Origin: Bacteroidota bacterium
GTDB lineage: Bacteria > Bacteroidota > Ignavibacteria > Palsa-1295
Direction: 5' to 3'
DNA: 64,000 nucleotides
Assembly: GCA_021324685.1 (NCBI GenBank)
Contig: JAJPIQ010000009.1
Location: forward strand, 1 to 64,000
Below the pieces are notes generated by a model. It had not been told where the DNA came from and ran no database searches. It saw nothing but the letters and a program-made list of their open reading frames with translations. The position numbers and the translations under genes were made by a program. This document shows, in pieces, positions 11,496 to 47,180 of this stretch. Each line of letters starts with the position of its first letter. Position 1 is the stretch's first letter.

Positions 11496-11511
11496 AAAAA
11501 AAGAAAAAACG

Positions 11512-11537
11512 ACTTAAAAAAGCAACTTAAAAAAGCA
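11512..11537. repeat. 13-bp perfect tandem duplication
   Basis: ACTTAAAAAAGCA | ACTTAAAAAAGCA, supplies two T-tracts to the adjacent minus-strand terminator. Confidence 0.9.
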
Positions 11538-11565
11538 AATCGACCCGCCGTTCGCGGGCCGATTT
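11537..11565 (-). terminator. Rho-independent terminator
   Basis: AAATCGACCCGC-CGTTC-GCGGGCCGATTT (12 bp stem, one mismatch); on the minus strand followed by repeated T6 tracts. Confidence 0.8.
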
Positions 11566-12338: not shown

Positions 12339-12513
12339 AAGTAGTACAGGTTTATTTAATACTACCTGTTGGTACAACCCGTGTTCCCAGGAGTTCATGA
12401 TTTTCCTTAATAGTGATTCACAAAATTCATGATTCGGGATCGGCGTGTTACTGGAAGAGAAAAACGCTACGTGCGCGATATCATGCGGATATCGAGAAGA
12501 CGTAGTCGTTTAC

Positions 12514-12551
12514 AGAGCATTATCGTTTCACCATTAGAGAGCATTATCGTT
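12514..12551. repeat. 24-bp period tandem duplication over the 3' end of the DUF6176-like gene
   Basis: Exact 14-mer AGAGCATTATCGTT at 12514-12527 and 12538-12551; second copy contains the stop codon. Confidence 0.9.
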
Positions 12552-12891
12552 CTACAATCTCTTGTATCTTCGGATCGAGAAAGACAACATCGGCATCGAT
12601 ATCTTTCCGCAGGTAGGTGCGATCAATGCACTCGTCGCCAAACGCGCGATGAAGCTCGTCGATGGGGTACGGGGAAGTTTCGATCGGCTCCGCTCCCGCG
12701 CCCTGGATCGCGAACCAATACAAGAATTCTTCTTCGCCGATCTTCTCACGAAAGATCGTCTCGACGTACATCTTTTCGCGTTCGAGCGTTTCGATGCACT
12801 CGGTCCTCCGGTCATTCAGAGTTTGGAACCATTCATCGACTCGCGCTGACATTCCATGTTTAATTTTAAGCCGTGTTAGTTCTACTTTCAT
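12544..12891 (-). CDS. DUF6176-like small protein
   Basis: MKVELTRLKIKHGMSARVDEWFQTLNDRR...EREKMYVETIFREKIGEEEFLYWFAIQG resembles the DUF6176 family as I recall it. Confidence 0.65.
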   Translation of the reverse strand: MKVELTRLKIKHGMSARVDEWFQTLNDRRTECIETLEREKMYVETIFREKIGEEEFLYWFAIQGAGAEPIETSPYPIDELHRAFGDECIDRTYLRKDIDADVVFLDPKIQEIVER

Positions 12892-12920
12892 AGGGTAATG
12901 TTATCATAGAGTAATGTTAT
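12889..12920. repeat. 16-bp tandem duplication between stop of the lamin-tail gene and start of the DUF6176-like gene
   Basis: CATAGGGTAATGTTAT | CATAGAGTAATGTTAT (15/16 identical). Confidence 0.93.
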
Positions 12921-15124
12921 CTCCGTTTTCCTGCAATCGCCACCCCCACTACTTGTTTCATCGTGCGGACGGGATTTTGTGAAGAAAGTTCGATGAGTGC
13001 GGTGTATAGGCCCGGCATAAGCGTCTGGCCGTTGTCCTTTCGTCCATCGAAAAGGATCGTCGTCGCACCGATCATTTGCACGGCATCGGCAAGAGTGCGT
13101 ACAATCTGTCCGCGCAGATCGAATAGGCGTACCCGCAGCGCCCATTCGGTCGTTGCATCGCCCGTCTGGATGGTCAGCGTCGATGCATCCTCGAAGCCAT
13201 CGCCATCGGGCGAAAACGGATTCGGCGCGAAGCTCGTGACGAACGACGTTCCAATGGGAACGACCGAATCGATCGTTGAAGATGCGATAGAATTTTTTGC
13301 GAGTGGTGTCGCGCCGGAACTGTCGATCGAAGCCTGCCAGTTGCTGGCAAGATCCGAAGGCATGCCGGGATCTTTTCGCTCCAAAGAAATCCCAATAAAC
13401 GATTTTCGCACAAGGCTTTGCTGCCAGCCTTTTAAATAATGGACGGAGTCGATACATGTCGAGTCCAGATCATGAAGAGTAAGAAAGCACGAGTCGTGAC
13501 CCAAATCGAGTGTGGAAACTCCCAGTCCGGCGACGCCGTCACGGTCTCGAAGGCGTGGATAGGTCGAAAAAAAGATCCCAACATCGGCCGCGATCACGCC
13601 GAACGAATCCGGAGCAATTATGAGCGGCGTTATCGTGTGCGTGTATTCAGCCGGACGTTTTTCGCCGGTGATCAGCCGTGTGGAATCGAGCGAAATCCAT
13701 CGCTTGGTTCTGTTGTACAGTTCGACCCACTCGCAACTCGCGGGTGTCGGATCGAACATGATCTCGTTAATCACAAGACTGTCTTCTGGAATCGGAATAT
13801 CGATAGAACACAGAAGCGTATCGTTGGAAGGACGTTCGTCCAGAGGATTGGAAAGAACAGCCGTCGCGTGCCACATTCCGAAAATATTTTCCGGAAGTAA
13901 AACTGGAACTTCGATCGTGTTTCCGGGTGCAATGGCTTCTGAAGCCATTGCCTTTACGGTGTCACGATCGCCGATAATGACCGACAGGGTCGTGTTGGCC
14001 ACCGTGTCCTTGCCAATATTTTTAAATTCAAGATAGAGATTCGATTCCGTGACCCGCGCTCCGATCAACGCAAGATCATAGGTTCGAATGCGGCAGGAAT
14101 TTGGGCGCAGAATGGTCGAACCCTTGGGGTCCGAGCAGGCGGCCCAGTTTGAAGGGATGGATCCTGCTTTTCCAGGATCGATCCGCTCGATCGAGGTTCC
14201 ATTCGATGCGATCCAGTTCCCATTATAGGCGATCGTGTCGATGAGATCGCCGAGCGGATCGCGCAACGCGAGTGTCGAACCGGTATTCAGAAGTGTGGGA
14301 AGCGAGACCTGGACGATTTTGAACGGTGCTATCGAATCGATTTGGGCGAGCGGCGTGGGATTAGCAGAAAGCACAACCATCGAGTCCGGGGCAACTTTAG
14401 TGTTCGTTGCAGCGATCGTACGCGGCGTATTTGTACCTATGGTGATCTGCCAGTGTGAGAGATCGATCGTGTCGTTTGCCGTATTGAGCAATTCGATCCA
14501 TTCGGGTTCGGGACTTACCGGCGCAAACATGATCTCGTTAATGACAACGTCAAGGGGGTTCGCGGGTATGTACGTGGGAGTCGAGTCGGAACTGGCAAGA
14601 CTATTTTTTGCGCCTGGTGTCGCGGAGGTTTCCCCAGCACTCGTCGGTGCAATGGAAGTTCCCCAATTCGTAGGATCGCTGGAAGTGCCGGATACATTGC
14701 GCCGTTCGAGCGATGCGCTGCTTGAGCCACCCCATGAGGGAAGATAAGGGACACTGTCGATCGTCTGGAGTCCGGCATTCTTTAGTAGAAGCTGTGTTCC
14801 AGCATTTGGCAGGTCCGGCAGTGGTCCTTGAACGATCGTATAATTCCCGGGCCTCCAGGCGATCAGTGCGGCGGAATCTTTTGTGAGTACAATGAAACGA
14901 TGCCCAGAGATCGAAGCCGCTGGAAGCGTACCCGTTTTCGAGGTCGTTGCAATGACCCAACCAGTAAGATCGACCACCGTTGAATCCATATTGTAGAGTT
15001 CGATCCATTCCGGCTCCGGGCTTTTCGGAGCGTACATGATTTCATTGATAACGACTCCGCTTTGAGCAAATACCGCGAGTGGTGGAGTCACAACGAACAA
15101 AAATAGAAGGCTGAGTTTGCTCAT
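12917..15124 (-). CDS. Secreted multi-lamin-tail-domain protein with C-terminal T9SS/FlgD-like tail
   Basis: Repeated VVINEIMYAPKSPEPEWIELYN / VVINEIMFAPVSPEPEWIELLN / LVINEIMFDPTPASCEWVELYN; C-term FAPNPFSPDGDGFEDASTLTIQT...LFDLRGQIVRTL. Confidence 0.85.
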   Translation of the reverse strand: MSKLSLLFLFVVTPPLAVFAQSGVVINEIMYAPKSPEPEWIELYNMDSTVVDLTGWVIATTSKTGTLPAASISGHRFIVLTKDSAALIAWRPGNYTIVQGPLPDLPNAGTQLLLKNAGLQTIDSVPYLPSWGGSSSASLERRNVSGTSSDPTNWGTSIAPTSAGETSATPGAKNSLASSDSTPTYIPANPLDVVINEIMFAPVSPEPEWIELLNTANDTIDLSHWQITIGTNTPRTIAATNTKVAPDSMVVLSANPTPLAQIDSIAPFKIVQVSLPTLLNTGSTLALRDPLGDLIDTIAYNGNWIASNGTSIERIDPGKAGSIPSNWAACSDPKGSTILRPNSCRIRTYDLALIGARVTESNLYLEFKNIGKDTVANTTLSVIIGDRDTVKAMASEAIAPGNTIEVPVLLPENIFGMWHATAVLSNPLDERPSNDTLLCSIDIPIPEDSLVINEIMFDPTPASCEWVELYNRTKRWISLDSTRLITGEKRPAEYTHTITPLIIAPDSFGVIAADVGIFFSTYPRLRDRDGVAGLGVSTLDLGHDSCFLTLHDLDSTCIDSVHYLKGWQQSLVRKSFIGISLERKDPGMPSDLASNWQASIDSSGATPLAKNSIASSTIDSVVPIGTSFVTSFAPNPFSPDGDGFEDASTLTIQTGDATTEWALRVRLFDLRGQIVRTLADAVQMIGATTILFDGRKDNGQTLMPGLYTALIELSSQNPVRTMKQVVGVAIAGKRR

Positions 15125-15151
15125 CAGGACACAATGGACACTTTATACAAC

Positions 15152-15182
15152 ATTCATAGTATATTATCCAAAATTCATAGTA
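15152..15182. repeat. Direct repeat ATTCATAGTA x2, 21-bp spacing
   Basis: 15152-15161 and 15173-15182 in the divergent intergenic region before rimO. Confidence 0.8.
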
Positions 15183-35705: not shown

Positions 35706-36980
35706 ATGGACACGGAAGTTTTTAGCAGTATTGAACGGGAGCTTGAACGCCAGCAACAGGGGTTGGAACTTATTGCAAGCGAGAATTTTACCTCCCTCGC
35801 CGTGATGCGTGCGCAAGGGAGTGTGCTCACGAACAAGTATGCTGAAGGTTACCCGGGAAAGCGATATTATGGCGGATGTGAGTTCGTCGATCAGGTCGAG
35901 AACCTCGCGCGGGAACGCGTGAAGAAATTATTCAGCGCGGAATATGCGAACGTTCAGCCGCATTCGGGGTCCCAGGCGAATATGGCGGTCTATTTTACGT
36001 TCCTCAAGCCTGGTGATCCGGTGCTCGGCATGAACCTTTCGCATGGAGGACACCTCACCCATGGGAACCCTGTGAATTTTTCCGGCCAGCTCTATAAATT
36101 CCATGCGTACGGAGTCTCGAGGGAAACAGGATATATCGACTATGAAGATGCCGAGCGTAAAGCACACGAAGTGAAGCCGAAAATGATCACGGTCGGCGCG
36201 AGCGCTTACTCGCGCGATATCGACTTTAAAAGATTCCGAGAAATTGCCGATTCCGTCGGAGCGTTTCTTTTTTGCGACATGGCGCATCCGGCCGGACTGA
36301 TTGCGAAAGGGCACCTGACGAGTCCGCTGCCTTATTGCCATGTCGTCAGTTCCACGACCCATAAAACATTACGCGGCCCGCGAGGGGGTCTCATTCTCCT
36401 TGGAAAGGATTTCCAGAATACCTGGGGCGCAGTCGCGCCGAAATCCGGGCGGACGAAGATGGTTTCGGAGATCATTGACTCGACCGTCATGCCCGGTGTG
36501 CAGGGCGGTCCGCTAATGCATGTGATTGCAGCAAAAGCCGTTGCGTTTGGCGAAGCACTGGAAGATGACTTTACCGAATATGGCGCTCAGGTGATCCGAA
36601 ATGCAAAACGGCTCGCTTCGGAGCTTGTCAAGCGCGGGTTCTATATTATTTCCGGAGGGACGGATAATCACCTGATGCTTGCTGACCTTCGCGGCAAAAA
36701 TATTACAGGGAAAGCTGCTGAAGAAGCGCTCGACCGCGCTGCGATCACGGTGAATAAAAATGCAGTGCCCTATGACGATAAGCCGGCGCTTGTCACGAGC
36801 GGTATTCGCATTGGTACCGCCGCAGTGACGACCCGCGGAATGAAGGAAGCCGAGATGGACCAGATCGCCGATATGATCGATCGCGTCGTTTCGAACCCGT
36901 CGGACGATAAGCTCATTGCATCCGTTCGCGAGGAGGTATGCCAGCTTACGAACCGGTTTCCTCTCTATCCCGGCCTATAA
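35706..36980 (+). CDS. glyA: Serine hydroxymethyltransferase
   Basis: [70 protein letters not shown]. Confidence 0.97.
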
Positions 36981-37883: not shown

Positions 37884-38855
37884 ATGTCCCTTCCCAAAGC
37901 AATTCTTGCCCCGGTCGAACGCGAAATGAAGGAATTCCATGCGGAATTCCGCCGCGCGATGATCTCGGACGTTCCACTCGTCAATCTTGTGGCGAAATAT
38001 CTTATTCGTACCAAAGGCAAGCAGCTCCGGCCGATGCTCGTCCTGCTTTCGGCAAAAGCGTCGGGAGGAATCAATCCGGCGACATACCGGGCCGCGACGC
38101 TGGTGGAACTATTGCATACCGCGACGCTCGTGCATGATGATGTGATCGACGAGTCGGACGAGCGCCGAGGCCTTGCGAGCATTAAGGCCCTCTGGAAAAA
38201 CAAAGTCGGAGTGCTCATGGGCGATTACCTGCTGGCACAGGGACTATTACGAACGGTCGCGACCCAGGAATATCATTTTCTTGAAATTACATCGAACGCC
38301 GTCCGCCGCATGTCGGAAGGAGAACTTTATCAGCTTCAGAAAGCCCGCCAATTGAACATCGACGAATCCGCCTATTTCCGGATTATCGGCGATAAGACAG
38401 CCTCGCTCATGAGCACTTGCTGTGAGCTGGGCGCCGCCTCCGTATCCGGAGCGCCCTATCGCGAGGCGCTTAAACAGTACGGTGAAGCCCTGGGAATCGC
38501 TTTTCAGATACGGGACGATCTTTTCGGCTTTGAAACGACCGGAATGACCGGAAAGCCTGCCGAAGCCGATCTCAAAGAAAAAAAATTGACCCTCCCGCTA
38601 ATTCATGCGCTCTCTCAAACGGATGCGAACACAAAAAAGCGAATGATTGGGCTGGTAAAAAACGGGAAGGCAGCAAAGGAAAGTTACCGTGACGTCATCG
38701 AGTTTGTCACGTCGAGCGGCAGCATTGGTTATACGCGCGCCAAAGCAAAACATTACGGTCAGGATGCGATCCGTGCTCTACAGACACTGCCACCGTCCGA
38801 AGCCCGGACTGCGCTGGAAGCGTTTGCAACCTATGTGATCGATCGAGATCAATAG
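37884..38855 (+). CDS. Polyprenyl diphosphate synthase
   Basis: GKQLRPMLVLLSAKA, LLHTATLVHDDVIDESDERRG, FQIRDDLFGFETT. Confidence 0.92.
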   Translation: MSLPKAILAPVEREMKEFHAEFRRAMISDVPLVNLVAKYLIRTKGKQLRPMLVLLSAKASGGINPATYRAATLVELLHTATLVHDDVIDESDERRGLASIKALWKNKVGVLMGDYLLAQGLLRTVATQEYHFLEITSNAVRRMSEGELYQLQKARQLNIDESAYFRIIGDKTASLMSTCCELGAASVSGAPYREALKQYGEALGIAFQIRDDLFGFETTGMTGKPAEADLKEKKLTLPLIHALSQTDANTKKRMIGLVKNGKAAKESYRDVIEFVTSSGSIGYTRAKAKHYGQDAIRALQTLPPSEARTALEAFATYVIDRDQ

Positions 38856-38879
38856 GTCATCAAGAATCATTAGATCACT
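38848..38879. repeat. Degenerate 18-bp tandem duplication spanning the stop of the polyprenyl synthase gene
   Basis: ATCAATAGGTCAtcaaga | ATCATTAGATCActccgg; TAG repeated in register. Confidence 0.6.
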
Positions 38880-42423: not shown

Positions 42424-42465
42424 AGGTCGCTAATAATCGTTCCGCAGTTCAAGACGAATAAAAAA

Positions 42466-42490
42466 CCGGGCCTGCGCCTGGCAAGTCCGG
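42466..42490 (-). terminator. Rho-independent terminator downstream of ccmF
   Basis: Minus strand CCGGACTTGC-CAGGC-GCAGGCCCGG followed by TTTTTTATT. Confidence 0.7.
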
Positions 42491-42509
42491 TCATCAACAC
42501 ACGCCGTGC

Positions 42510-42551
42510 GAGTTTTACGCCCTGTTCCTCGAGTTTTACGCTCTGCTTCTG
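42510..42551. repeat. 21-bp tandem duplication spanning the ccmF stop codon
   Basis: GAGTTTTACGCCCTGTTCCTC | GAGTTTTACGCTCTGCTTCTG (17/21). Confidence 0.9.
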
Positions 42552-45253
42552 TGTTTCTTTTTTGTTATCAAGGGACGCGTACGCGAAGGAATCGGTCCGG
42601 CATCGGAGAGCGACTGCGCATGATCCGAGCCAAGGAATTTTTCGTAGGCCCGCTCCGCACGCTGGATTGCAAGTAATGCTTCCCTTCGGCGACGAACGAC
42701 CGAAAACCCAAAGCCGATCACTAGGGTGATGATCCCAAGCCAGACCATATTGATATACGGTTTCACGAAGGCTTCGACCGTGACGACGTCCTTTGCCGGA
42801 GCCGGCGGATGCTGGTCGTCAAAATAACGGAGTACGACTTTGGAATTAGCCGGGTTCTGCATGTCCGGCATCAACTGACCGAGTTGCAGGTGATAACTCG
42901 TTCCCGGAACCTGGACGTCCTCTTCGGTCGCTTCGTCTGTTACTGGATTCCGTGTGACGGCAAGGACGAGTGTATCGCCGGCCGGCCGGTCGGGCGTACT
43001 TGCGACGACCGTCGCTTTGACGCGGAACTTTTGCTTCGAGAACATCTTCATCTTCTCTGACTGTGGAAAATCGAAGTTGAGAAACGTGACGTTCAGTTTG
43101 CCGTCCAAAAGACGGGAAGACTGGAGTTTGCCCAGTGTGTCTTTCGGCACATGGTCTTCGAAATTGTAGCTGTTCAATGTAAAATAAAGATCGCGCGTGG
43201 CGTATTTTACAATGCCGGGATTCCGGATCGGCTCCTGACGCTGGTTGAAATCGGTCCAGAACGTAAGAGGCCGAGCGGTCCCCAAATACGTACCCGATCG
43301 ATTGGCAATATCGATCAGCCAATAGATATTATCGGCCTGCAGCATTTCCAGCCGGACGTCATATCCTTCGCGGGAGATTTCGCCTCGGGCGAAGGAGTCG
43401 TCGAGAGCCTGCTTTGCCTGAGGGTTCGCAACTTGCTCGACATCCCGAAACGTCAGCACATATTTGCCCCCGAACGCCGAAACGTGGTCGCCTTTGGGCA
43501 GGCGAATAATTTCGTGTTTCGTGTATCCGTTCGCGGCAATAACACCGATCACGAATACGGAAAAACCGGCATGCGCAATGTACGCTCCAAGGAATTTCGT
43601 ATCGAAAATAAATTTCGGGTAACCCGATAGCACGAATATGACGAGCAGCGCTGCAAACAGGATCGCGAAGTACGGCCAGTAGGTCGTCACGGCGGGAACG
43701 AAAAGATTGTAATCGCCGGCCGTTCCGACGAGCAACGACAGTACGCCCAGCAGCAGCGCGATGGCAAGCGCGGTAAAGACCCGGCGTGAATAATCGCGAC
43801 CGGTGGGCGGCGAGCGGTCGAAGGAAAGCTTCCAATGCCCACGCAGGATCTTCCAACCGATCTCGAGATTAACGAAGAGTGCAAAAAATGCCGCGCCACA
43901 TACCAAAATAAAGCGGCCGTCGTGCACGCCCATCACGATCACGAGCGCCGTAAACAGGGTCGCCGCAAGGAGAGCCGAGATCGATTTTTTCCAGACTTCA
44001 TTCCAATTTGACTGCCGCCATTTGAGCAGCAGCGAAAGGCCGTTGACGACCAGAAGCACGATGACGATCGGAATGTGCAGGTTGTTATAAAATTCAGGAA
44101 CGACTTTTTTCTGCACGAGTGGTGCGCTTGTGCCGATGAACACCACGAGCGCGGAAGCGCCAAGCACGGCCGAAGCGATGGAAAGCCCCGTTTCGCGGGA
44201 AAGGATCTTATAGTCCTGCGCGAAGCCGGACATTTCCCGCCAGCGCCAAATAAAAATCCCGTAGGGAATGAGAATAAATGCTCCAAGGGCGACCACCAGC
44301 AGCGTGAATGCAAGATAGCCGGGGTCCGCAAACGAATGGACGGACGCGTCGCCAAGCACACCGGAGCGCGTCAGGAACGATCCGTAGAGCACGAGCGCGT
44401 AGGCTAAAAGTGTCAGTGCGATGTTCGTGCGAATGAGCCCGCCCGTTCGCTTTTGAGTGAGCATCGAATGCGCGGCGGCGACCGTAATCAGCCACGGAAG
44501 TAAACTTGCGTTCTCGACCGGGTCCCACGCCCAAAACCCCCCCCAGCCGAGCGTTTCGTATGCCCAGAATCCTCCCAGCATGACTCCAAATCCGAGGACC
44601 ATGGCCGCTCCGAGCGTCCAGGGCATCGAAGTAAGTACCCATCCCTGGTAATCGCGGCGAATGAGGCCGGCCAGGGCAAACGCAAATGGGACGGCCAGGA
44701 GCGAAAATCCGAGGAAGAGCATCGGCGGATGAATGACGATCCAAAGATTTTCGAGCGATGGGTTCAGCCCTTTGCCGTCCGCCGGAATCAGTCCTTTCAT
44801 CGCCTGACCCGGATTTGCAGCATAGATCGTCTCGAACGGACTCTTCGCCAGCAACATGATCGAGATGAAAAGCAGCACGAACAGGAAGATTGCCATCACG
44901 TGTGCTTCGTACCTCTGGCGCCGCGCGTATGGAATCAGGAAGATCGCAATGAGCGAAGTCCACAAGCCCCACAGCATGAAGCTGCCTTCCTGGCTTGCGT
45001 AAAACGTTGAAAAAAGGAGGAGTTTGCTTAGATTGCGCGAGACGTGCTCGAAGATATAATTGATCTCGAAATGATAATTGAAGATATAATAGAGCAGCGT
45101 GGCGCATGCCGTAAGCATGCCCAGGATCGCGAACTGGGTTGCACGGCGCGCGACGACTGTGAGTTCCGTCCGGCCGCGAGCGGCAAGGATATAAAGAACG
45201 ATTCCGGCTACGGAACCCGTGAACGTAAGAGCGAGTGCGAGGCTGCCGATCAT
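42536..45253 (-). CDS. ccmF: Heme lyase CcmF (cytochrome c maturation, WWD domain)
   Basis: LWIVIHPPMLFLGFSLLAVPFAFALAGL, LGWGGFWAWDPVENASLLPWLI, SFLTRSGVLGDASVHSFADPG. Confidence 0.95.
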   Translation of the reverse strand: MIGSLALALTFTGSVAGIVLYILAARGRTELTVVARRATQFAILGMLTACATLLYYIFNYHFEINYIFEHVSRNLSKLLLFSTFYASQEGSFMLWGLWTSLIAIFLIPYARRQRYEAHVMAIFLFVLLFISIMLLAKSPFETIYAANPGQAMKGLIPADGKGLNPSLENLWIVIHPPMLFLGFSLLAVPFAFALAGLIRRDYQGWVLTSMPWTLGAAMVLGFGVMLGGFWAYETLGWGGFWAWDPVENASLLPWLITVAAAHSMLTQKRTGGLIRTNIALTLLAYALVLYGSFLTRSGVLGDASVHSFADPGYLAFTLLVVALGAFILIPYGIFIWRWREMSGFAQDYKILSRETGLSIASAVLGASALVVFIGTSAPLVQKKVVPEFYNNLHIPIVIVLLVVNGLSLLLKWRQSNWNEVWKKSISALLAATLFTALVIVMGVHDGRFILVCGAAFFALFVNLEIGWKILRGHWKLSFDRSPPTGRDYSRRVFTALAIALLLGVLSLLVGTAGDYNLFVPAVTTYWPYFAILFAALLVIFVLSGYPKFIFDTKFLGAYIAHAGFSVFVIGVIAANGYTKHEIIRLPKGDHVSAFGGKYVLTFRDVEQVANPQAKQALDDSFARGEISREGYDVRLEMLQADNIYWLIDIANRSGTYLGTARPLTFWTDFNQRQEPIRNPGIVKYATRDLYFTLNSYNFEDHVPKDTLGKLQSSRLLDGKLNVTFLNFDFPQSEKMKMFSKQKFRVKATVVASTPDRPAGDTLVLAVTRNPVTDEATEEDVQVPGTSYHLQLGQLMPDMQNPANSKVVLRYFDDQHPPAPAKDVVTVEAFVKPYINMVWLGIITLVIGFGFSVVRRRREALLAIQRAERAYEKFLGSDHAQSLSDAGPIPSRTRPLITKKKHRSRA

Positions 45254-45776: not shown

Positions 45777-45902
45777 TCGCGCTAAGTTCGGAGTTTAATT
45801 TTTCATGGACACCACATGATTCTCCGTCCAGGGGAATCCGTCTCGGAAGCGTCCACGGACTTTGGTTTTAGTCGAACATCGGCTCAAGGCGTGTTGCCTC
45901 TT

Positions 45903-45938
45903 GAATTGATCGCCTAAATCTCGAATCGATCGCCTAAA
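45903..45938. repeat. 20-bp period tandem duplication spanning a stop codon
   Basis: GAATTGATCGCCTAAA tctc GAATCGATCGCCTAAA. Confidence 0.9.
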
Positions 45939-47121
45939 AATGATAGGAGGCGCTGACGAGGGGAATGACATCGAAGGCGGTATTGAAGACGTATTCGCCA
46001 AGGGTCTTCATGCCACTCGCGCCAGCTTTATAAAGCGAGAAAACAACGCCGGCATCGACGGTGAGATCGTTCTGGAAATAGCGGACCGAGAAGACGGTAG
46101 GCACTATTCCGAAATCGCCGATAAAATACATTTCGATGGCCGCCTTGAGGTTTTCCCCAACACGCAGATCACCGGAAACTCCAATAAAACTATTTTTTGG
46201 GTACGTGTGAAAGCCGAGTGAGTCATTGTCCTGAAAGGCATAGCCGCCAAGAATAGTCAGTTCAGATTCCCAGGTCCCATAGGTCGCGGCGAGATAGGGA
46301 AACGCAATTTGATTCACCTTTACAACGCTGGAATAGACTCCCTGAAAGCCGGCCGAGACGGTAAAAAGGTCCTCGGAAAGTGGGGTAATCTTGACCCCGG
46401 CGGTAGCCGTGGAAACGGACGTTGGCAGGAAGGGCGCCACGAGTCCGCCGGCATTGACGCTCAGCCAGTCGCTAACGCCATAATTAAGTTGAAGTCCGGC
46501 GATCATGTAGTCCATAACGAACAAGTTGCCGCTCCCGAACGAGCGCGCGGTGGGAAGCAAAAAGTCCTGTGAGGAAAGAGGGTCTTTGGCGTTGGTGTAC
46601 CGAGCGGTAGAAAAGTCTTCCCGTCGGTCGTTCTGGCCGGACCAGTTATCGACGTAATCGAGATCGGGATATTTAAAAAAGAGATCGCCATACGGCGTCG
46701 AAAGGATGACGTGAGCGGTATCGTCGAACAAATACCGGTGGCCGATAAAGATATCGTGATCTTTGGTTGCGACGGTGGAAAGGAAGGGAAGTTTTGGCTG
46801 CGAGAGAAATTTAGCTACAGCATAATGCTGGGCATCGGCCGCATTTTTCAGGGCGGCTTGCTTGAGATCGTCCTTCTGAACCCAGTTATAACGATAATCA
46901 ATGACCGTGGCGATACTGGCCAGAGGAATTTCCAGACGCCCATAGCTCGTCTCGACAATAATCCGGTCGGGGACTGGACGCCCAAGGACGTTCACGTAAA
47001 ATTCCGAAGAGTCCTGAAGGACCAGTTTCACGTAGCTATCGGGTGTAAGTTCCGAAGGCGAAAGTTGCGCGAACGCGTTGGCCGAAAGCAGGACAAAAAT
47101 GGAAGCGACAAAATATTTCAT
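45934..47121 (-). CDS. Secreted/outer-membrane beta-barrel protein of unknown function
   Basis: Signal peptide MKYFVASIFVLLSANAFAQ; YVKLVLQDSSEFYVNVLGRPVPDRIIVETSYGRLEIPLASI; C-terminal ..LVSASYHF. Confidence 0.7.
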   Translation of the reverse strand: MKYFVASIFVLLSANAFAQLSPSELTPDSYVKLVLQDSSEFYVNVLGRPVPDRIIVETSYGRLEIPLASIATVIDYRYNWVQKDDLKQAALKNAADAQHYAVAKFLSQPKLPFLSTVATKDHDIFIGHRYLFDDTAHVILSTPYGDLFFKYPDLDYVDNWSGQNDRREDFSTARYTNAKDPLSSQDFLLPTARSFGSGNLFVMDYMIAGLQLNYGVSDWLSVNAGGLVAPFLPTSVSTATAGVKITPLSEDLFTVSAGFQGVYSSVVKVNQIAFPYLAATYGTWESELTILGGYAFQDNDSLGFHTYPKNSFIGVSGDLRVGENLKAAIEMYFIGDFGIVPTVFSVRYFQNDLTVDAGVVFSLYKAGASGMKTLGEYVFNTAFDVIPLVSASYHF

Positions 47122-47133
47122 TGCAAAAAGCGG

Positions 47134-47180
47134 ATCAATGCTCGACGAATCGATGCTGAACGAATCAATGATCTTAACGA
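47134..47180. repeat. Three tandem copies of a ~15-bp unit at the ruvC 3' end
   Basis: ATCAATGCTCGACGA | ATCGATGCTGAACGA | ATCAATGATCTTAACGA. Confidence 0.85.

Follow-up and report, generated by a model that had tools for sequence, protein, structure and literature searches.

Short tandem duplications over stop codons in a duplication-prone soil bacterium: probable neutral scars

Results

The short tandem duplications that lie over stop codons in this genome are probably neutral and lineage-specific, the genome being one that makes or keeps more such duplications than most; the pattern is best read as what remains visible after selection has filtered a duplication-prone genome. The window, by which we mean the whole 64,000-nucleotide stretch analysed, is part of contig C19 in the assembly of a soil bacterium, which totals 3.47 Mb and is 98% complete. 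The sample comprised 1.51 Mb of the 3.47 Mb (44%), taken from the window's own genome as the window itself and the stretches L002–L021, L132–L151 and L193–L232; genes were called with a purpose-written hexamer-based caller, and ungapped tandem matches were scanned at periods of 8–40.

Duplications in the window

A first-pass annotation of the window had listed six sites as instances of a recurrent duplication at gene 3′ ends, the best case being that over the stop codon of ccmF. The features concerned, with two further intergenic arrays, are as follows.

42509–42545, minus strand: 21-bp tandem duplication over the ccmF stop (17/21 identical over the span first annotated)
42536–45253, minus strand: ccmF-like cytochrome c assembly protein, 905 aa (Pfam PF01578 and PF16327)
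12510–12551, minus strand: 24-bp tandem duplication at the stop of the DUF6176 gene, second TAA in frame
12544–12891, minus strand: DUF6176 gene (PF19673)
12888–12921, minus strand: 16-bp tandem duplication over both the LTD-gene stop and the start codon (ATG) of DUF6176, the next gene downstream
12917–15124, minus strand: LTD (lamin tail domain) protein gene, stop duplicated (PF00932)
45899–45938, minus strand: 20-bp tandem duplication over the TAG stop of the 45934 gene, repeated TAG out of frame
47134–47170, minus strand: degenerate tandem repeat, 15 bp × 2.5, a few bases 3′ of the ruvC stop (47176–47174)
15143–15182, plus strand: 21-bp intergenic tandem duplication of the same class, away from stops
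11504–11538, plus strand: 13-bp intergenic tandem repeat, away from stops

On the minus strand the 3′ end of ccmF reads ...AGAAGCAGAGCG TAA AACTCG and then, at once, AGGAACAGGGCG TAA AACTCG. The reading frame terminates within the first duplicate copy (TAA at 42538–42536), and the repeated TAA (42517–42515) is in frame. The region around each array was dinucleotide-shuffled 400 times and rescored. No shuffle matched the ccmF array, which is thus a real duplication; the same result (0/400 each) was obtained for the stop-straddling arrays at 12510–12551, 45899–45938 and 12888–12921 (first annotated as 12514–12551, 45901–45940 and 12889–12920). Four of the six listed sites are therefore real and straddle stops. 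The remaining two fared less well: the repeat described as 15 bp × 3 at 47134–47180 is detectable but weak (11/400 shuffles match its score), has 2.5 copies and lies past the ruvC stop rather than over it, and the supposed duplication with an in-register TAG at 38848–38879 stands at chance level, its score being equalled by 164/400 shuffles. The window is also a rich patch, with four stop-straddling sites among approximately 46 called genes, compared with 21 arrays among 1184 in the whole sample.

In the 12888–12921 array the repeated TAA is out of frame; the first copy retains the stop and the second the start. Since the stop and the next start both lie inside the duplication, the DUF6176 ATG is now 16 bp farther from the GGAG motif that ends the upstream gene, a displacement that may affect DUF6176 translation. 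Separately, inspection by eye of the minus strand shows an inverted repeat with a T run behind it at 42440–42495, a candidate intrinsic terminator 3′ of the duplicated ccmF stop.

Density and nature of the duplications

The sample contained 92 noncoding duplications, mainly of two copies and 14–30 bp. At a score of at least 13, 170 kb of noncoding DNA yielded 72 arrays (4.24 per 10 kb) and 1306 kb of coding DNA yielded 38, so that arrays are approximately 15-fold denser in noncoding DNA; segment-wise shuffles of a 773-kb sample gave 0.3 expected noncoding arrays against 34 observed. The control loci were ccmF neighbourhoods from many assemblies, so that densities rather than whole genomes are compared; E. 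coli (50 kb) was left out as too short for statistics. Noncoding density in the Ignavibacteria/Kapabacteria-type and other-phyla loci together was 0.74 per 10 kb (8 in 108 kb), a ratio of 5.7 in favour of the window's genome (p = 1e-8), and 0.7–0.8 per 10 kb when the two sets were taken separately. Two congeners gave 2.4 per 10 kb, and one same-family and one same-class genome 0.7–0.9.

The first-pass statement that unit sequences differ and that no dispersed repeat family is involved was essentially right, as only six pairs among the 92 noncoding arrays share an 11-mer, and the common unit sequence of such a family is lacking. Noncoding periods are spread, with 42/70 falling at 15–23 bp, the lower edge being fixed by the detection threshold; the arrays mostly have no more than three copies, and are richer in A+T than the remaining noncoding DNA (58% versus 50%).

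Further repeats were also encountered. Multi-copy arrays with near-identical copies at L002 8128–8225 (14 bp × 7), L012 10089–10201 (23 bp × 5) and L012 16191–16272 (14 bp × 6) are candidate variable-number loci. The same-genus genome G001 carries a heptamer tandem repeat family (ATTCGTA, CATTCGT and CATTCAT variants), of which a simple pattern search found eight arrays, with examples on contig C1 at 35945–35977 and 72502–72532; the same pattern found none in the sample of the window's genome. A near-palindromic 16-mer, GCATGATCGCTCATGC, which resembles a REP-like hairpin, recurs in the window's genome, chiefly between genes, and forms three tandem pairs (C4:93624–93657, C4:122043–122078 and C10:127734–127776); further copies lie in G001 and close to a congener's LTD gene (L258).

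Reading frame and the second stop

Coding duplications have a period divisible by 3 in 32/36 cases (p = 7e-12), which shows purifying selection on duplications within genes. Stop-straddling duplications have such a period in 8/22 (p = 0.46 against one third), as neutrality would predict, and the second stop is in frame in 10/23 (p = 0.21 on the same comparison); this second tally also takes in genes at contig edges and scores one array twice, once for each of the two genes that converge on it. The enrichment of periods divisible by 3 that had been proposed as a check is thus not seen at stops. The second copy retains the identical stop triplet in 19/23 arrays, and substitutions affect 3/66 positions in the stop triplets versus 34/468 in the rest of the unit, so that the triplets are not significantly better conserved.

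Joints and repair genes

We examined the joints of the exact noncoding two-copy arrays, a small set (n = 16). The matching run extends beyond the unit by 0 bases in nine, by 1 in three and by 2 in one, and in the remaining three it falls 2 bases short of the unit; the joints thus show no microhomology beyond chance, 13 of the 16 extending 0–2 bases. A few longer matching runs appear when one or two mismatches are allowed. Ku (PF02735) was detected in neither the window's genome nor six congeners, and was present in 6/41 genomes searched. We accordingly rejected Ku as a cause of the duplications, and the presence of Ku that fill-in with non-homologous end joining would entail is not seen in these seven genomes. 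The window's genome does encode an ATP-dependent ligase domain and two MutS-type proteins, which have little bearing on the cause.

Orthologous junctions in congeners

The assemblies with the most similar ccmF among those named include 'Candidatus Kapaibacterium' and Bacteroidetes/Ignavibacteriae metagenome assemblies; the ccmF junction of one, L025 (Candidatus Kapaibacterium sp.), is that of the same-genus genome G002 (L107). No duplication over the ccmF stop was found in the readable same-genus loci (L104, L105, L106, L107 and L108) or in the named L022, L023 and L025, and these orthologues stop at, or close to, the position at which the window's ccmF stops. In L106 a 13-bp repeat of unrelated sequence lies 25 bases past the ccmF end. 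The L104 and L105 genes end in agggcgtaa, slightly nearer the window's second copy than its first (agagcgtaa), which suggests that the first copy has probably been altered since the duplication.

The LTD-gene array (12888–12921) is likewise absent at that stop in the congener orthologues examined, the 45899–45938 duplication is absent in one same-genus orthologue (L024, the sole locus read), and six stop-straddling genes besides ccmF and the LTD gene, each with a readable congener orthologue, show no duplication over the stop. Across these eight genes no duplication lies over the stop in the congener orthologues read, and the orthologues end where the first copy ends, as in the pairs ...cgctggaagtaa versus ...agctggaagtag and ...gagacgtaa versus ...gagacctaa. 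Judged from these junctions, each examined stop duplication is lineage-specific and has preserved the ancestral protein end. The congeners are diverged (ccmF protein identity approximately 68–80%), so the events cannot be closely dated.

Are stop codons preferred?

A duplication that includes the stop is silent for the protein, whatever its period, because the first copy still terminates the gene; we therefore counted an array as stop-straddling when the stop sits in the first copy. Coarse-bin profiles inflate the excess at stops, since arrays grow by one or two bases through chance, and the later tests demand an overlap of 5 or 7 bases. Simulated random uniform insertion followed by repeated gene calling gave 10.2 expected stop-straddling duplications against 22 observed (p = 0.0004). 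With the window excluded, stops carried 15.0 per 10,000 positions versus 5.6 in the 3′ flank (approximately 2.7-fold, p = 0.0015), and in convergent gaps, which are promoter-free, 23.0 versus 5.6 (p = 0.008). The most stringent null relocated each array inside its own junction, and gave 21 observed versus 12.1 expected with the window and 17 versus 11.3 (p = 0.016) without it; the result was 12 versus 9.1 (p = 0.12) at a score cut-off of 13, 11 versus 8.5 (p = 0.16) at 14, and 17 versus 8.7 (p = 0.0003) when a 7-base overlap was required. A version counting any overlap with the stop (13 versus 8.9, no clear excess) was discarded, because the stop must fall in the first copy and too many placements were counted.

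Stop-straddling arrays favour TAA (18/23, compared with 53% genome-wide, p = 0.012), the local A+T bias of duplications accounts for only a small share of the excess (3.96 versus 3.63 per 10 kb expected), and start codons are depleted (6 observed versus 9.5–12.6 expected, depending on cut-off). The pooled relatives show no significant excess at stops by within-junction relocation (6 versus 4.0, p = 0.15) and none relative to the 3′ flank (4.2 versus 5.7 per 10,000 positions); singly, the same-genus G005 gave 4 versus 1.7 (p = 0.045) and G001 gave 0 versus 0.8. With several cut-offs and nulls applied, a p-value close to 0.01 cannot be taken as decisive.

The preference for stops is thus weaker than the window implies, consisting mostly of tolerance together with a modest, unproven, null-dependent excess of 1.3–2-fold. 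The suggestion of a genome-wide habit at stop codons holds in so far as noncoding duplications are abundant and the relocation excess reaches 17 versus 11.3, but not under the stricter cut-off or in the pooled relatives. The proposed comparison of stops, starts, coding and intergenic DNA came out in a similarly mixed way: stops exceed the 3′ flank, to an extent that varies with the null, starts are depleted, and coding DNA is 15-fold sparser in arrays.

Discussion

The first-pass annotation had offered slippage or templated duplication at gene junctions, or selection for backup stops or spacer, as explanations. Its repeated mutational process is borne out by the high genome-wide density, the unrelated units and the lineage-specific origin of the duplications. 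Slippage as their source is not: although arrays of at least three copies, such as the 14 bp × 7 of L002 8128–8225, presumably grew in that way once formed, replication slippage between existing short direct repeats would leave homology at the joint at the time of formation, and the lack of it above chance in the 16 exact noncoding arrays, a small sample, makes this a very unlikely starting event. Selection for backup stops, whereby a second stop is kept to catch ribosomes that read through, would fit the identical triplet in 19/23 second copies, but we regard it as highly improbable: with no bias towards periods divisible by 3, in-frame backup stops are not under selection, the proportions in frame do not exceed one third, the triplets show no significant extra conservation, ccmF, the LTD gene and the six others lack a duplication over the stop in every same-genus orthologue that could be read, and a survey of eubacteria found no evidence of selection for additional stops, and a paucity rather than an excess (Ho and Hurst, PMC6764699). 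Where the second stop is in register, it is a by-product and no backup kept by selection. That the pattern is chance similarity picked out by eye is scarcely credible; 38848–38879 is such a case, but none of the 400 shuffles matched any of the four arrays, and 34 noncoding arrays were seen where 0.3 were expected.

A mutational hotspot, that is, a process targeted to gene ends, for example through breaks or nicks at sites of ribosome or RNA polymerase release, is unlikely on present evidence. It is favoured by the 2.7-fold excess over the 3′ flank outside the window and by the promoter-free convergent gaps; against it are the pooled relatives, even if G005 alone shows an excess, the loss of significance at the stricter score and the number of cut-offs and nulls tried. 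To a more specific form, a Ku-independent, homology-free process triggered preferentially at translation stops at approximately two to three times the adjacent 3′ rate, we would give, if anything, slightly poorer prospects; were it true, protein-silent footprints would mark breaks or nicks at gene ends. The counts of 22 versus 10.2, 17 versus 11.3 and 17 versus 8.7, the TAA bias and the 2.7-fold flank ratio do count against pure neutrality.

We nevertheless favour neutral, lineage-specific duplication. A copy would be added without the use of existing short repeats, perhaps through fill-in and rejoining at a staggered break or at paired nicks, and purifying selection would clear copies inside genes or over start sites. 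Where a duplication contains a stop, the first copy terminates the gene at the ancestral place, leaving the second as spacer. The location at gene junctions reflects mostly tolerance, in that duplications persist where they are harmless. If neutral duplication is the right account, a general process comes to appear purposeful once filtered by selection, which is a caution against taking in-register second stops as design. A Kapabacteria-type genome in which short homology-free duplications are several-fold more numerous than in related groups, and in which no Ku was detected, could also aid in finding how bacteria produce them.

Comparison with known systems

In the literature searched, which mostly excluded subscription papers, we found no earlier description of the stop-codon pattern. 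Some arrays resemble fail-safe (tandem) stops in having an identical in-frame stop a few codons downstream, but the arrays as a set show neither in-frame preference nor conservation, and the eubacterial survey found no selection for such stops (PMC6764699). Certain bacterial genomes are rich in tandem repeats whose units are alike in length but unrelated in sequence (Subirana and Messeguer, PMC8161180). The window's genome is like these in having scattered, unrelated units of similar length, only six pairs among 92 arrays sharing an 11-mer; such repeats are numerous in some species and few in most. The repeats of that study, however, have at least four copies of a near-constant 20–23-nt unit, whereas ours mostly have two copies and periods of 14–30; its text mentions no association of the 20–23-nt repeats with stop codons.

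In mammalian cells, small tandem duplications are produced when break ends are first filled in and then joined (PMC8355091). These too are two-copy duplications of adjacent sequence, as are ours, with joints lacking homology above chance, but the mammalian route relies on Pol alpha-primase, CST and non-homologous end joining; as Ku was detected neither in the window's genome nor in the six congeners, the likeness is limited to the product and does not extend to the pathway. In the Beggiatoaceae, TAACTGA heptamer repeats are, like the present arrays, intergenic direct repeats able to overlap gene ends, some of them overlapping stops (PMC4679880). They form a single shared family, whereas in the window's genome every unit is different; for their position the authors invoke tolerance at gene ends.
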